Assembly (NCBI GenBank): GCA_002840155.1
Contig: PGZH01000005.1
Location: 62,001 to 126,000, forward strand
Reading direction: 5' to 3'
Length of the DNA: 64,000 bases
From: Gammaproteobacteria bacterium HGW-Gammaproteobacteria-13
Lineage (GTDB): Bacteria; Pseudomonadota; Gammaproteobacteria; Pseudomonadales; Pseudomonadaceae
Positions within the stretch are counted from its first letter, which is position 1. Each line of letters starts with the position of its first letter. Under the pieces are notes generated by a model. The model did not search any database. It was not told the origin of the DNA and saw only the letters and a list, made by a program, of their open reading frames with translations. This document shows, piece after piece, positions 3,043-25,390 of this stretch. The position numbers were made by a program, and so were the translations under genes.

Positions 3043-4104
3043 ATGAAGAAACTGCTTGGCCTGCTTGTGGCCTTGATTGCTGCGGCGGCGATCTACCTCG
3101 TCGTCACACCCAGCCCAATTGATCCACTGGCCTGGGAAGCCCCGGCCATCCCGCCGATGACCGGCATACTCGAACCCAACGACACCTTGATGAAGGCCGA
3201 ACTGCTCGGCCGCGGCCAGGTGCATGGCCCGGAAGACACCGCCGTAGATGCCCAGGGTCAAGTGTACGCCGGCCTGCATGACGGCAAGATCGTGCGCATC
3301 AAGGCCGATGGCAGCGTGGAAACCTTCGCTGACACCCAAGGCCGCCCGCTGGGCATGGACTTTGACGCCGCCGGCAACCTGATCGTCGCCGACGCCTACA
3401 AAGGCTTGCTGAGCATCGACGCCCAGGGCCAGATCAAGGTACTGACCACCGAAGCCGAAGGCGTAGCCTTCAAATTCACCGACGATCTGGATATCGCCCG
3501 CGACGGCACCATCTACTTCAGCGATGCCAGCCAGCGCTTCGAACAGCCGGATTACCTGCTCGACCTGCTCGAAGCCCGCCCCCATGGCCGCCTGCTCAGC
3601 TACAACCCGGCAACTGGCGAAACCAAGGTACTGCTCAAGGACCTGTACTTCGCCAACGGCGTGGCGCTGTCGGCCAATGAAGACTTCGTGCTGGTCAACG
3701 AAACCTACCGCTACCGCATCACCCGTTACTGGCTGAGCGGCGACAAGGCTGGCACCCACGACATCTTTATCGACAACCTGCCGGGCCTGCCGGACAACCT
3801 GCAGGGCGACCGCAACGGCACCTTCTGGGTGGCTCTGCCGACCCCGCGCAAAGCCGACGCCGACATGCTGCACCGCTCGCCCTGGGCGAAATCGCAGCTG
3901 GCCAAACTGCCACGTGCCTTCTGGCCCAAGGCTGTGCCTTACGGCTTTGCCATCGCCCTCAATGAACAAGGCGAAATCACCCAGAGCCTGCACGACACCA
4001 GCGGCACCCACCTGCGTATGATCACCTCGGTCAAACCGGTGGGCGACTATCTGTACTTCGGCAGCCTGGATAATGATCGGATCGGTAAGTTGAAAATTCG
4101 CTAA
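3043..4104 (+). CDS. SMP-30/gluconolactonase or strictosidine-synthase-like beta-propeller protein
   Basis: A 353-residue protein whose N-terminus (MKKLLGLLVALIAAAAIYLV) is a signal peptide or membrane anchor. The start is chosen because the sequence AGGGA lies about 8 bases upstream of this ATG. The rest shows repeated beta-propeller blades (for example DTAVDAQGQVYAGLHDGKI, DGTIYFSDAS, GVALSANEDFVLVNETYRYRI), matching the strictosidine synthase/SMP-30 superfamily, whose members are calcium-dependent lactonases or esterases. It probably faces the periplasm. The substrate is unknown. Its TAA stop sits at the edge of the palindromic repeat that follows. Confidence 0.82.
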   Translation: MKKLLGLLVALIAAAAIYLVVTPSPIDPLAWEAPAIPPMTGILEPNDTLMKAELLGRGQVHGPEDTAVDAQGQVYAGLHDGKIVRIKADGSVETFADTQGRPLGMDFDAAGNLIVADAYKGLLSIDAQGQIKVLTTEAEGVAFKFTDDLDIARDGTIYFSDASQRFEQPDYLLDLLEARPHGRLLSYNPATGETKVLLKDLYFANGVALSANEDFVLVNETYRYRITRYWLSGDKAGTHDIFIDNLPGLPDNLQGDRNGTFWVALPTPRKADADMLHRSPWAKSQLAKLPRAFWPKAVPYGFAIALNEQGEITQSLHDTSGTHLRMITSVKPVGDYLYFGSLDNDRIGKLKIR

Positions 4105-4316
4105 GAACCTGCCTCGGATCTGCTGCGCGTCGGCCAAACTGCGTTGAAAACGGCCTCGGCAAGCCGCTTGCGGCTAACGCGCTTTAGCGCGGCCCGAAGG
4201 GCGAGCGAAGCGAGTAATGCTCATGTACAAAAGTACACTCGCGTGCGAGCCCAGTCCGCTTCCTCGGCCTTTTTCGCCTTGTTTTGCTCTAGCTCGCGAG
4301 ATCCGAAACAGGCTCT
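4104..4316. repeat. Long imperfect palindromic repeat, copy 1 (with 56-bp internal insertion)
   Basis: This 213-bp block has near-identical inverted ends: AGAACCTGCCTCGGATCT on the left and, as reverse complement, AGAGCCTGTTTCGGATCT on the right (15 of 18 identical). Its core (GATCTGCTGCGCGTCGG, GTTGAAAACGGCCTCGG, TCCGCTTCCTCGGCC) is shared with a second copy in opposite orientation inside the cobalamin riboswitch near 25.1 kb. Compared with that copy it carries an extra 56 bases (4160-4215). It has no coding capacity and looks like a non-autonomous, MITE-like element. The left end coincides with the stop codon of the preceding gene. Confidence 0.8.
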
Positions 4317-4329
4317 AAGCCGCCCATAC

Positions 4330-4368
4330 AAAAAAGCCCGCGCAACTGCTTAGCTGCGCGGGCTTTTT
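4330..4368. terminator. Bidirectional rho-independent terminator
   Basis: The stem GCCCGCGCA / TGCGCGGGC encloses a short loop and is flanked by an A-run on the left and a T-run on the right. It therefore works in both directions, as expected between the convergent SMP-30-like gene and the spermidine-synthase-like gene. Confidence 0.92.
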
Positions 4369-4384
4369 AATGTTCGCGATTTAC

Positions 4385-5068
4385 CTATTTGATCTTTTCC
4401 GCGATCCAGATGGTGTGCCGGGTGCCCTTGTTGCCATGGGCATAGACCTGCACTTCCTCGACCTTGAAGCCGGCCTTGCGCACCTTGTCGCTGAATACCC
4501 GGTCGGCGCTGGCCGACCACACCGCCAGCACGCCTTTGTTACGCAATGCCTGGTAGCAGCGCTGCAGGCCCTGGGCGGAATACAGCCAGCTATTGCGCTT
4601 CTGGGTCAGGCCTTCGGGGCCGTTGTCGACATCCAGCATGATCGCGTCATAACGCTGGTCGGCGCTCTTCAGGCGATTGGCGACATCGTCCTGAATTACC
4701 CGGGTGCGCGGATCGAGGATCGGATAACCGGCCTTGGCCCCCAACGGGCCGCGGTTCCATTCCACCACCCCAGGCACCAGCTCGGCCACTTCCACTTCGG
4801 CGGTCTTGCCCAGGTTCTGCAAGGCTGCGGCCAGGGTAAAGCCCATGCCCAGGCCACCGATCAGCACCCGCGAATCCGGCCGCCCAGCGACCTTCTTGCA
4901 GGGAATCGCCGCCAGCGCATCTTCAGAGCCATGCATGCGCGTGTTCATCAACTGACCGCCATCGCCGCCGGCAATCTTGATCACAAAATCCTCGCCGTAC
5001 TCGAACAGGCACAGCGCGCCCGAGCCATCGGGAATCGGGGCGGTATCGAGCAATACAAAACGCTTCAT
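4385..5068 (-). CDS. Spermidine synthase-like SAM-dependent protein
   Basis: A 227-residue protein starting MKRFVLLDTAPIPDGSG. The glycine-rich nucleotide motif IGGLGMGFTLAAAL (about residues 70-84), an acidic residue after it (VEVAELVPGVVEWNRG) and DAIMLDVDNGP are those of the spermine/spermidine synthase fold. It is shorter than true spermidine synthases (usually over 280 residues) and lacks their N-terminal beta-strand domain, so putrescine aminopropyltransferase activity is doubtful; it may be a methyltransferase-like relative. A longer reading would need a TTG start directly abutting the ribosome-binding site, which is less likely. Confidence 0.8.
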   Translation of the reverse strand: MKRFVLLDTAPIPDGSGALCLFEYGEDFVIKIAGGDGGQLMNTRMHGSEDALAAIPCKKVAGRPDSRVLIGGLGMGFTLAAALQNLGKTAEVEVAELVPGVVEWNRGPLGAKAGYPILDPRTRVIQDDVANRLKSADQRYDAIMLDVDNGPEGLTQKRNSWLYSAQGLQRCYQALRNKGVLAVWSASADRVFSDKVRKAGFKVEEVQVYAHGNKGTRHTIWIAEKIK

Positions 5069-22940: not shown

Positions 22941-24244
22941 ACCGGCGCTCCGGGGCGAAACAGTGCGGCGGCGGCAGCCGGATCGGACGGCAGATAGAAG
23001 TGGATATAGGAGGCGGTCATCCGGCCCTGGCGATAGACCGCCTCACTGGTGCGCTTGTAGTTCGGGCATTCGCCACGGGTCAACGGTTGCAGCTCGCTGC
23101 TTAACGCTGAGTAGTGAAAACTGTGGCCGCGCAGCAGCCCTTCTGGCAGTTCCGCCTGCTGTAAAGCCATGGCGGTCATGCGCGGCTGCAGGGTCGCCTC
23201 GCCGTTTAACAAGCCAAGCATCTGCCCGCTGGCACCCTGTTTGTCGGTCAGTTTGTCGAGCAGATAGAGCATGCCGCCGCACTCGGCATGAATCGGCTTG
23301 CCGGCTGCATGGTGCGCGCGAATCGACGCGGCCATGGGCTGGTTGGCCTCAAGCGTGGGCAGATGCAACTCTGGGTAGCCGCCGGGCAGATACAGGCTGT
23401 CGATATCGGGCAATTGCTGATCGCTGAGCGGGGAAAAGAACGTCAATTCAGCGCCCAGTTCGCGCAGCAGATCGAGGTTGGCCTGGTAGAGAAAGGCAAA
23501 GGCGCTGTCGCGCGCCACGCCAATCCGCACGCCCTTAAGCAACGGCTCAATGCCGCAAGACTCAGGTGCGGCAAAGCTGACTGGCGGCGGCAGGCTGGTA
23601 TCGGCACTGGCGGCCAAGGCATCGGCGGCGGCGTCCAGGCGCGCATCCAGGTCGACCAACTCGCCCGCCTGCACCAGGCCCAGATGGCGACTCGGCAAGC
23701 CGACTTCGGCGCTGCGCGGCAAAGCGCCGTACCAGCGAATCGAGGCTGGTAGCGCGTCGCGCAATATCTCGCCATGCCGCGCACTGCCAACCCGATTGCC
23801 GAGCACCCCGGAGAACGGCAGATCAGGCTGAAAGGTCGCCAGGCCATGGGCCATGGCACCGAAGGTCTGCGCCATGGCCGAGCCGTCGATCACCGCCAGC
23901 ACCGGCACGCCGAAATGCCGGGCCAGGTCGGCAGCCGATGGCGTGCCATCGAACAGGCCCATCACCCCTTCGATCAGAATCAGATCAGCTTCACCTGCGG
24001 CTTCCCAGAGCAGCTTGCGGCTCTGCGCTGCGCCGACCATCCACAGGTCGAGCTGATACACCGGCGCGCCGCTGGCGCGGGCGAGAATCATCGGATCGAG
24101 AAAATCCGGGCCGCACTTGAACACCCGTACGCGCTTGCCCTGACGCGCATGCAAACGCGCCAAGGCGGCGGTCACCGTAGTCTTGCCTTGGCCGGAAGCC
24201 GGTGCGGCGATCAATAACGCCGGGCATGAACGAGCGCTGGTCAA
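22937..24244 (-). CDS. cobB: Cobyrinate a,c-diamide synthase
   Basis: A 435-residue glutamine-dependent amidase acting on the corrin side chains a and c. The P-loop APASGQGKTTVTAAL is near residues 14-28, followed by FKCGPDFLDP. The glutaminase Cys is in HAECGGMLYLLD. No in-frame ATG or GTG precedes the P-loop; the frame begins at a TTG that overlaps the cobO stop as TTGA and has AAGGGGG about 9 bases upstream, so a rare TTG start is the best reading. Confidence 0.94.
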   Translation of the reverse strand: MTSARSCPALLIAAPASGQGKTTVTAALARLHARQGKRVRVFKCGPDFLDPMILARASGAPVYQLDLWMVGAAQSRKLLWEAAGEADLILIEGVMGLFDGTPSAADLARHFGVPVLAVIDGSAMAQTFGAMAHGLATFQPDLPFSGVLGNRVGSARHGEILRDALPASIRWYGALPRSAEVGLPSRHLGLVQAGELVDLDARLDAAADALAASADTSLPPPVSFAAPESCGIEPLLKGVRIGVARDSAFAFLYQANLDLLRELGAELTFFSPLSDQQLPDIDSLYLPGGYPELHLPTLEANQPMAASIRAHHAAGKPIHAECGGMLYLLDKLTDKQGASGQMLGLLNGEATLQPRMTAMALQQAELPEGLLRGHSFHYSALSSELQPLTRGECPNYKRTSEAVYRQGRMTASYIHFYLPSDPAAAAALFRPGAPV

Positions 24245-24852
24245 AACTCGACCCCCTTCTGCGCCTTAACCCCGGCCTTGAACGCATGCTTGACCAGGCT
24301 CATCTCGGTGACGGTATCCGCCGCCTCAATCATCCCCGGCAGCGCGCCGCGACCGGTTACCACCACATGCTGCAGCAACGGCCGCGCTTCGATATCGGCG
24401 AGCACCGCGTCGAGTTCCAGATAGCCGTATTTCAACGCGATATTCAGCTCGTCGAGCACCACCAGGCCGATGGCAGGGTCATTCAGCAGCTGCGCCGCCA
24501 CCGCCCAGGCTTCGCGGGCCTTGTCGATATCGCGCTGGCGATCCTGCGTCTCCCAGGTAAAGCCCTCGCCCATTACGTGGTAGCTGACTTCATCGGGGAA
24601 ACGGCGGAAGAAGCTTTCCTCGCCGGTGCTGGCTGCACCCTTGATAAATTGCACCACGCCGACCTTGAGGCCGTGACCCAGGGCGCGGGCGACCATGCCA
24701 AAAGCGCTACTGCTCTTGCCCTTGCCATTGCCGCTGTGCACCAGCAGCAGACCGTACTCGTCCTGGGCCTGGGCAATCTTTTCATCGATCAGGGCTTTCT
24801 TGCGGGCCATGCGCGCCTTGTGCCGGGCGTCACGTTCAATCGATTCAGTCAT
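24241..24852 (-). CDS. cobO: Cob(I)alamin/corrinoid adenosyltransferase
   Basis: A 203-residue ATP:corrinoid adenosyltransferase (BtuR/CobA family) that attaches the upper adenosyl ligand. The start MTESIERDARHKARMARKKA is the usual N-terminus. The unusual P-loop GNGKGKSSSAFG is near residue 43, and VVLDELNIAL and VTGRGALPGMIEAADTVTEM are family motifs. It is the first gene of the cob operon, with the cobalamin riboswitch leader directly upstream. Confidence 0.95.
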   Translation of the reverse strand: MTESIERDARHKARMARKKALIDEKIAQAQDEYGLLLVHSGNGKGKSSSAFGMVARALGHGLKVGVVQFIKGAASTGEESFFRRFPDEVSYHVMGEGFTWETQDRQRDIDKAREAWAVAAQLLNDPAIGLVVLDELNIALKYGYLELDAVLADIEARPLLQHVVVTGRGALPGMIEAADTVTEMSLVKHAFKAGVKAQKGVEF

Positions 24853-24969
24853 CGCATGCTCCACCGCCACAGGGCGATCTGGCTGGAAAAAGCATGCGGA
24901 GATAGGGAAAGCGCGGGCCTGCGCACAGCGCACACCACACGCCAGCCATCGCCCTCCGCGATGCCGTGG

Positions 24970-25318
24970 ACTGCAACAGGCCGGTCTCCGGGCTTGTGAG
25001 CGAACCTTAAGGTTCTCAGAACCTACTTATGATCTAGCGAGCTAGAGATAAACGGTGGCGAAAATGGCCGAGGAAGCGGAGTTTACTGATTGTAAATGAG
25101 CATTCCGAGGCCGTTTTCAACGCCGTTTAGCCGACGCGCAGCAGATCATAAAAGGTTCTAAGCCGCGCCTTCCCATGCAAACAGCACAGTGGCAATAGCG
25201 GCGTTTGACTCACTTACCGTTGCGGGGGCAGCGTCGGAATAGTTGGCGTAAATGCACAACGCACCGACTTCCCAGTTTCACCCCGCACACGCACAGCGTT
25301 GGGGGCACCTGTTACAAG
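24970..25318 (-). promoter_or_regulatory. Cobalamin riboswitch, interrupted by a repeat
   Basis: Read on the minus strand, all conserved blocks of the AdoCbl aptamer are present in order: ACAGGTGCC, GTGAAACTGGGAA, GCTGCCCCCGCAACGGTAAG, GAGTC, GCCACTG, GGGAAGGCG, and the B12 box AAGCCCGGAGACCGGCCTG. The outer stem pairs GTAACAGG with CCTGTTGC. A 142-bp palindromic repeat sits between GGGAAGGCG and the B12 box; without it the aptamer would be about 207 nt, a normal size. The leader continues for about 115 bases to the cobO start, so it should control the whole cob operon by coenzyme B12. Confidence 0.93.
25018..25159. repeat. Long imperfect palindromic repeat, copy 2 (inside the riboswitch)
   Basis: The left end AGAACCTACTTATGATCT and the reverse complement of the right end, AGAACCTTTTATGATCT, are nearly identical. 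The core matches copy 1 near 4.1 kb in opposite orientation but lacks its 56-bp insertion. It has no coding capacity. The position within the riboswitch corresponds to a peripheral, length-variable arm, so the paired ends may extend that arm instead of breaking the aptamer core. Confidence 0.85.
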
Positions 25319-25390
25319 GCGCGAAGGGTAGAGAGTTCGCGATTAAGCGTCAAACGAATGCGCGGCATGCAGCCGTGAATCAGGGGCAGC

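Follow-up and report, generated by a model that had tools for sequence, protein, structure and literature searches.

MITEs are short elements with terminal inverted repeats. In bacteria they have been treated as a class in a review that, in the excerpts used here, calls riboswitch formation by MITEs conceivable and does not mention insertion into an aptamer (PMC10969869). Palindromic repeats inside other structured RNAs are known. The Rickettsia palindromic elements (RPE), repeats of 105 to 146 bp, are found in tmRNA and in the M1 RNA of RNase P, and the extract of the review cited here states that their effect in structured RNA genes may be neutral (PMC2229807). In the trp leader of pneumococcus, according to the section cited, two T-box riboswitches are separated by a BOX element (PMC3049150). 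Cobalamin riboswitches have a P6 accessory region, which the consulted portion of the literature describes as varying greatly in length and in number of stems (PMC9600662). Among the matches listed from the open-licence full-text literature, to the extent of the text available, we found no report of a mobile element or MITE inside a riboswitch aptamer. Here we describe a palindromic element within the cobalamin riboswitch of a cobO leader. We consider it likely that this is a MITE insertion that is tolerated as an extra arm, with core pairing and B12 control kept.

The cobO leader and its inserted element

An Rfam scan of the window, by which we mean the whole 64-kb stretch of DNA analyzed, gave a single RNA family match, a cobalamin riboswitch, which scored well above the gathering score of RF00174 (82.8 versus 31.5 bits). 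The alignment spans model positions 1 to 189, the full model length, with the conserved core blocks and the B12 box in order on the minus strand, as the first-pass annotation had stated for the AdoCbl aptamer. A long insert follows model position 151, which agrees with its further statement that a repeat separates the GGGAAGGC block from the B12 box. The covariance model, the downstream gene, and the anatomy all identify the leader as a cobalamin riboswitch (Table 1). Because of its place between these two blocks, we assign the insertion to the P6 accessory region; this name and those of the arms P3, P4, and P13 are our own assignments, based on the Rfam consensus and the usual nomenclature. 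The start codon of cobO is at 24852-24850. Of the downstream hairpins, that at 24945-24964 is presumably P13/L13, the kissing-loop partner of L5 in this class, and the probable hairpin over the ribosome-binding site is likewise present in two other cobO leaders, L078 and L091, where one of its pairs is preserved despite a change on one side (U-G to U-A). Sequences similar by eye to the promoter-like TTGACG-17-TACCCT are present in the cobO leaders of relatives; a consensus scan of the window leader detected no promoter, this one included, and no terminator, and thus neither of the two within the element.

Table 1. Positions of the riboswitch, the inserted element, and associated features in the window
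Feature	Position	Strand	Basis
Cobalamin (adenosylcobalamin-type) riboswitch aptamer, element-occupied	24962..25327	-	RF00174, 82.8 bits, model 1-189
Palindromic MITE-like element, 140 bp, between GGGAAGGC block and B12 box	25019..25158	-	Genome repeat family, L064 copy, empty sites, fold
TTA, upstream flank of element (putative TNA-type target duplication)	25159..25161	-	Sequence reading; family TNA pattern
TGA, downstream flank of element, imperfect partner of TTA	25016..25018	-	Sequence reading
Native small hairpin GAACC-UUAA-GGUUC, directly 3' of element	25002..25015	-	Found in empty orthologues
Probable P13/L13 hairpin GCATCGCGGAGGGCGATGGC	24945..24964	-	Sequence reading
Probable hairpin hiding the cobO ribosome-binding site GGUGGAG, GATCGCCCTGTGGCGGTGGAGC	24858..24879	-	Sequence reading
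Probable promoter upstream of whole aptamer, TTGACG, 17 nt, TACCCT, read by eye	25325..25353	-	Sequence reading
cobO, corrinoid adenosyltransferase, gene downstream of riboswitch	24241..24852	-	Pfam PF02572, E 3.8e-62
Second family member, 211 bp, TAA on both sides	4105..4315	+	No Rfam match at that place

The inserted repeat belongs to a real repeat family, but its limits are slightly tighter than the 142 bp first proposed, and it has the inverted ends GAACC..GGTTC. In the window's genome, the family has at least 40 matches (40 of 119 first-look candidates scored), and the aligned copies have in common a palindromic core and the ends GARCC..GGYTC beside TNA. The end motif GARCCTGYTTANGATCT was matched 68 times with up to two mismatches, compared to 5 times for a reversed control. 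Both ends were recognized in 14 of 30 family copies, and among these 14, TNA was present on both sides in 6 and the flanks were identical in 5. TNA or YTAR duplications are typical of IS5-like elements. Exact TTA/TTA flanks were seen at L195 and L309. None of the 68 end matches belonged to an autonomous partner with the same ends, and no inverted pair at insertion-sequence distance was seen, as the inverted pairs, matched by eye, all lay within about 260 bp; since such a partner may have been lost or may have diverged ends, this absence does not exclude the MITE class. On the strength of its ends, copies, flanks, and presence/absence polymorphism, the element is MITE-like. The repeat previously noted near 4.1 kb is indeed a family member, but it is longer and matches the riboswitch copy in parts only (43 nt at 95% and 66 nt at 80%). 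The TAA upstream of this second copy may belong to the gene before it, as its stop codon.

The suggestion that the repeat folds on itself was supported by prediction: the RNA of 25018-25162 has a folding energy of -57.5 kcal/mol (z = -8.3), which none of 200 shuffled sequences reached. The effect of the element on the aptamer was calculated at the level of secondary structure as the mean ensemble probability of 41 canonical consensus pairs taken from the Rfam alignment. This value was 0.748 for the empty (joined) aptamer and 0.749 with the element in place, compared to 0.530 ± 0.137 when dinucleotide shuffles of the element (n = 100) took its place, none of them as good. Forcing all 41 pairs cost 40.2 kcal/mol in the empty and 40.3 kcal/mol in the occupied leader; with shuffled inserts, the mean cost was 42.4 kcal/mol, and 14 of the 100 did as well or better. 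Similar values with and without the insertion were obtained for L195 (0.573 in both states; 0/60 shuffles as good) and L144 (0.644 empty and 0.643 occupied; 0/60), and L145 was the one weak case of the four (0.553 empty and 0.513 occupied; 21/60). When the element was placed at successive positions of the empty aptamer, the core was held within 0.02 at 98 of 224 of them, including an unbroken stretch around the observed insertion site; by secondary structure alone, many sites besides the observed one would therefore be permissible. The element thus appears self-contained in the predicted fold, leaving the aptamer pairs as they are without it.

Occupied and empty leaders in related species

A search with CobO yielded 80 named loci, with Pseudomonas peli and several MAGs being closest, and a B12 box was present within 900 nt upstream in 40 of the 80. 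One of these loci, L064, comes from a sister lineage with a separate assembly and has the same junctions and an insertion 100% identical to that of the window. The site is empty in L063 (P. peli), L066, and L067 (P. guineae). The Rfam scores of these empty orthologues are 106.9, 106.6, and 105.4 bits, and a near-empty leader, L065, scores 100.5 bits, compared to 80.2 to 84.5 bits for the four leaders occupied at the window's site (window, L064, L078, and L091). The first-pass annotation had named a gain in score on removal of the repeat as support for an insertion, and natural relatives, used here in place of edited sequence, provide this gain. It had also stated that the insertion reading would fail if every sister strain carried unrelated sequence of equal length there; this did not occur, and the three empty sites, together with the folding test, are in line with its proposal of an extra arm at a place that tolerates length variation. 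The insertion reading draws on these empty sites and the score difference and on the inverted ends, the TNA flanks, and the folding test. In a tree built from cobO and downstream DNA, the window groups with L064 and adjoins L063, L065, and L066. As judged from these sequences, the window's species and the sister lineage most likely inherited the insertion from a common ancestor.

P. cuatrocienegasensis (L078) and L091 carry another family member at the same place and in the same orientation as the window. Since position and orientation are equal in neighboring clades, one shared ancestral insertion, instead of two separate ones there, has to be considered. We regard this as doubtful. Between these elements, 22 of 135 positions differ and there are 10 gap columns, compared to 11 of 124 positions with 12 gap columns in the leader tail, whereas orthologous copies elsewhere evolve at a lower rate than the DNA flanking them. 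Furthermore, each element is closer to other family copies than to its counterpart, and empty leaders stand between the window and L078/L091 in the tree. Gene conversion could, however, blur the distinction between one event and two.

Some leaders of the P. mendocina group carry, between CCCCGCAAC and GCCACTG, a distinct palindromic element whose core is of the same kind and whose typical ends are GCAGACC..GTCTGC. It is present in L080, L086, L088, L089, L094, L096, and L098, left as a remnant in L085, and absent from L087, L090, L095, L099, and L100. Occupied and empty leaders are interleaved in both groups of the tree. Three occupied aptamers of the mendocina group score only 33.2 to 33.5 bits against the cutoff of 31.5, and similar ones may therefore escape annotation.

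Insertions and their remnants across the genus

The survey covered 398 genomes of the window's genus, which is Pseudomonas to judge by the named CobO relatives, and targeted five places, in loops, the P6 accessory region, and the linker, with three gap patterns (148 to 180 nt) and one family end after the B12 box. Insertions in cobalamin leaders were found in 15 of the 398 genomes. They represent 12 separate events, or 11 if the cobO insertions of the window's genome (G000) and of G154 are one. The insertion of an element into the aptamer stands as first read, with the qualification that it is not a unique event. Every occupied aptamer scanned exceeds the Rfam gathering score. The survey covered only the gap lengths, places, and ends named here and would have overlooked insertions in core helices.

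The pattern from GGGAAGGY to the B12 box (gap of 148 to 178 nt) matched six genomes, five of which carry insertions (G000, G154, G195, G123, and G305); the sixth, G368 (L143), proved on reading to be a chance match. The pattern from CCCCGCAAC to GCCACTG (gap of 150 to 180 nt) was unspecific: 103 genomes matched, and all except G260 and G084, the latter with the mendocina-group insertion, were judged unrelated, by the first 80 letters or, for L198 and L199, by the sequence at the locus. From the 30 genomes that matched GGGAA to GCTGCCCCCGCAAC (gap of 148 to 178 nt), G001, G415, G379, G185, G187, and G130 were kept, and the others were judged unrelated by the start of the match. The first four of these apparently have one P4-loop insertion in common, which in G001 precedes a gene that encodes sulfite-reductase domains and is probably cobG. 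This insertion of the probable cobG leader was observed in four species (L061 at 1834-2182, L191, L193, and L194), and in its outer stem, as compared by eye, a C-G pair changed to G-C and a T-A pair changed to G-C on both sides. G187 has another insertion, with exact TTA/TTA flanks, and that of G130 is located in the P3 loop. Finally, one family end within 32 nt after the B12 box was matched in 30 genomes, of which G000, G175, G279, and G305 were kept and the others were rejected on the printed match.

With this last pattern, a second cobalamin riboswitch was identified in the window's genome (L309 at 4042-4430; G000:C22:183041-183430). Here, a MITE with exact TTA/TTA flanks lies between the aptamer and a P13-like hairpin, upstream of a receptor-like gene (a btuB-type leader; TonB type by eye), and the genome has two occupied cobalamin leaders, those of cobO and of the btuB-type gene. 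In G305, the insertion after the B12 box is upstream of a gene resembling cobW. It is of note that this 86%-complete genome also has two occupied cobalamin leaders (L331 and L148), one of them in the P6 accessory region and one in the linker.

The ends of the inserted elements vary, with GAACCTG beside TNA, a GGGTTTGTACGAAAAGT-like type with CTAG flanks in L144, GCAGACC, and GAAAGGACGTGC, but the elements have a palindromic core in common. We observed the core GAGTTTAC..GTAAATGAGC and close variants with at least three sets of terminal repeats (L144, L145, L148, L196, and L088), as if one core had been captured by several transposases.

FMN riboswitches had no insert of this size among the 118 matches listed from 116 of 119 genomes (3 being without a match), and RNase P had none in 119 matches from 119 genomes. 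The longest FMN match, 208 nt in G062 (G062:C1:800908-801115) compared to 142 to 173 nt in the others listed, suggests a smaller insert. Because insertions are infrequent in cobalamin leaders as well, their absence from these two RNAs does not mark cobalamin riboswitches as special. Specific targeting of riboswitches was considered and set aside. A rough neutral estimate, based on about 100 copies, an assumed 0.5 Mb or so of intergenic DNA, and six aptamers of 0.2 kb, would be about 0.25 insertions per genome, against the 2 in the window's genome.

Two insertion sites were also found in a collapsed state, reduced to 15 to 16 nt made of element tips. In the cobO leader of L065, only GAGCCTGCTAGGTTC is present (GAGCCTG-C-TAGGTTC), which resembles two element tips, and in the btuB-type leaders of G175 and P. 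peli (G279), the site equivalent to that of L309 is reduced to the 16-nt GAGCCTGAATAGGTTC (GAGCCTG-AA-TAGGTTC). A search for GAGCCTG within 8 nt of AGGTTCTNA in 11 genome entries, apparently 10 different genomes, gave matches in 6 of the 11. Two P. peli entries (G279 and G422) have an identical btuB-type locus, and the matches in G425 and G130 were discarded as coding sequence in orthologous genes. The matches outside coding sequence are those of G175, P. peli, and L065, so that compact remnants, in the one form searched, lie in cobalamin leaders. A 31-nt piece from G175 is predicted to fold into a 12-bp hairpin; the result for a 42-nt piece from L065 is less clear, as its predicted fold takes in the native hairpin and is equaled by 9 of 200 shuffles.

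The native hairpin directly 3' of the element in the window itself resembles the ends of the inserted element. A GARCC..GGYTC hairpin of this kind was present in 20 of 36 cobO-leader segments and in none of 24 segments from riboswitch loci L031 to L060, taken irrespective of gene context. Its likeness to the element ends may be due to chance or to descent, and an earlier collapse may account for the GAACC-N4-GGTTC hairpin that is present in many Pseudomonas cobO leaders. We put forward only tentatively that variable arms of cobalamin riboswitches could be born from mobile palindromes, with a MITE entering a tolerant site as a complete stem and then being shortened by internal deletion to a short hairpin of its two tips.

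Probable tolerance of the element and comparison with known systems

In light of the presence/absence pattern and the predicted folds, a nonautonomous palindromic MITE most likely entered the cobO riboswitch by transposition, at a TNA site within the P6 accessory region. Transcribed with the leader, the element would fold as its own hairpin, like an extra arm, and the core, the B12 box, and the downstream hairpins would pair as before, so that B12 control would continue. The element would then be tolerated rather than recruited, as a selfish insertion where the riboswitch already varies. The same self-folding property would let related elements settle elsewhere in variable places of this riboswitch class, and later internal deletions would shrink the inserted elements to small hairpins. 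Points that speak against this reading are the shuffles that equal the element when all 41 pairs are forced, the weak case of L145, the restriction of the folding test to secondary structure, the imperfect TTA/TGA flanks of the window copy, and the lack of an autonomous partner among the end matches; cutting of the long RNA duplex by RNase III could also break the leader.

Rather than being tolerated, the element could have been recruited, that is, kept by selection as an extra arm that retunes switching, stability, or the insulation of the leader. Insertions are common to several species in more than one clade, two double changes that, by eye, preserve pairing are seen in the shared P4-loop insertion, and the elements within pairs of relatives are nearly identical. 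Between the window and L064, the element has 0 differences in 140 positions, the rest of the aptamer has 6 in 176, and the third codon positions of cobO have 22 in 203. The corresponding values for L078 and L091 are 0 in 140 for the element and 24 in 203 for cobO third positions, and between L088 and L089 the element differs at 1 of 142 positions (2 of 142 with other locus limits) and the tail at 26 of 205. However, orthologous copies outside riboswitches also change slowly. Six such copies compared between the window's genome and that of L064 differ at 15 of 740 positions and their flanks at 67 of 1,774, with 0 of 159 and 13 of 299 for the riboswitch copy in the same comparison; four copies from the L088 and L089 genomes differ at 16 of 493 positions and their flanks at 87 of 1,197, with 2 of 142 and 22 of 297 for the riboswitch copy. 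Slow change is thus a general trait of these elements, and we set aside the conservation of the element as proof of function after these controls. It is not clearly specific to riboswitches, as far as these alignments go, and a small extra constraint on the element within them is possible. In addition, self-templating can produce double changes in a palindrome, sister species without the insert keep an intact riboswitch, and the two sites with collapsed remnants suggest that an insert of full length is dispensable. Recruitment is, in our view, unlikely.

A still less probable explanation is that the insertion damages the riboswitch and leaves cobO unregulated or weakly regulated in this lineage. 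The lower Rfam score of the occupied leader, the presence of a 140-nt duplex in it, and the collapsed forms, which suggest that shortening is favored, would agree with damage. On the other hand, the core and the B12 box are intact, and outside the element, the window and L064 aptamers differ by 6 substitutions and 1 gap, all of which lie in or directly at three terminal loops. Moreover, insertions persist in several species, and the aptamer is more conserved than its surroundings (11 of 159 positions differing between L088 and L089, against 26 of 205 in the tail). Lastly, an assembly artifact or a chance fold deserves practically no credence, as the same junctions are present in the separate assembly of L064, a similar insertion is present in L078 and L091, and the z-score of the fold is -8.3.

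The gain and loss of peripheral arms in structured RNAs have so far mostly been inferred from alignments of distant species. Here, a single genus offers the occupied, empty, and collapsed states of one leader, together with a traceable source of the added stem. With this, it becomes a testable question how large an arm an aptamer tolerates before its response to the ligand shifts, and another is whether new RNA arms commonly originate from mobile palindromes.

Like the RPE, the element described here is a palindromic repeat inside a structured RNA. The hosts of the RPE, however, are a ribozyme and tmRNA, whereas the host here is a metabolite sensor, and collapse to scar hairpins, which we see as remnants at two sites, is not mentioned for the RPE in the cited extract, the likeness being drawn from description only (PMC2229807). 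Similar to the pneumococcal BOX element, it is a MITE-like repeat that would be cotranscribed with a riboswitch, and in the pneumococcal case the riboswitches still appear to work, according to the section cited (PMC3049150). While the BOX element lies between two T-boxes, as described there, the Pseudomonas element is located inside one aptamer. Taken together, what distinguishes this leader from ordinary variation of the P6 accessory region is that the added arm is a traceable mobile element.
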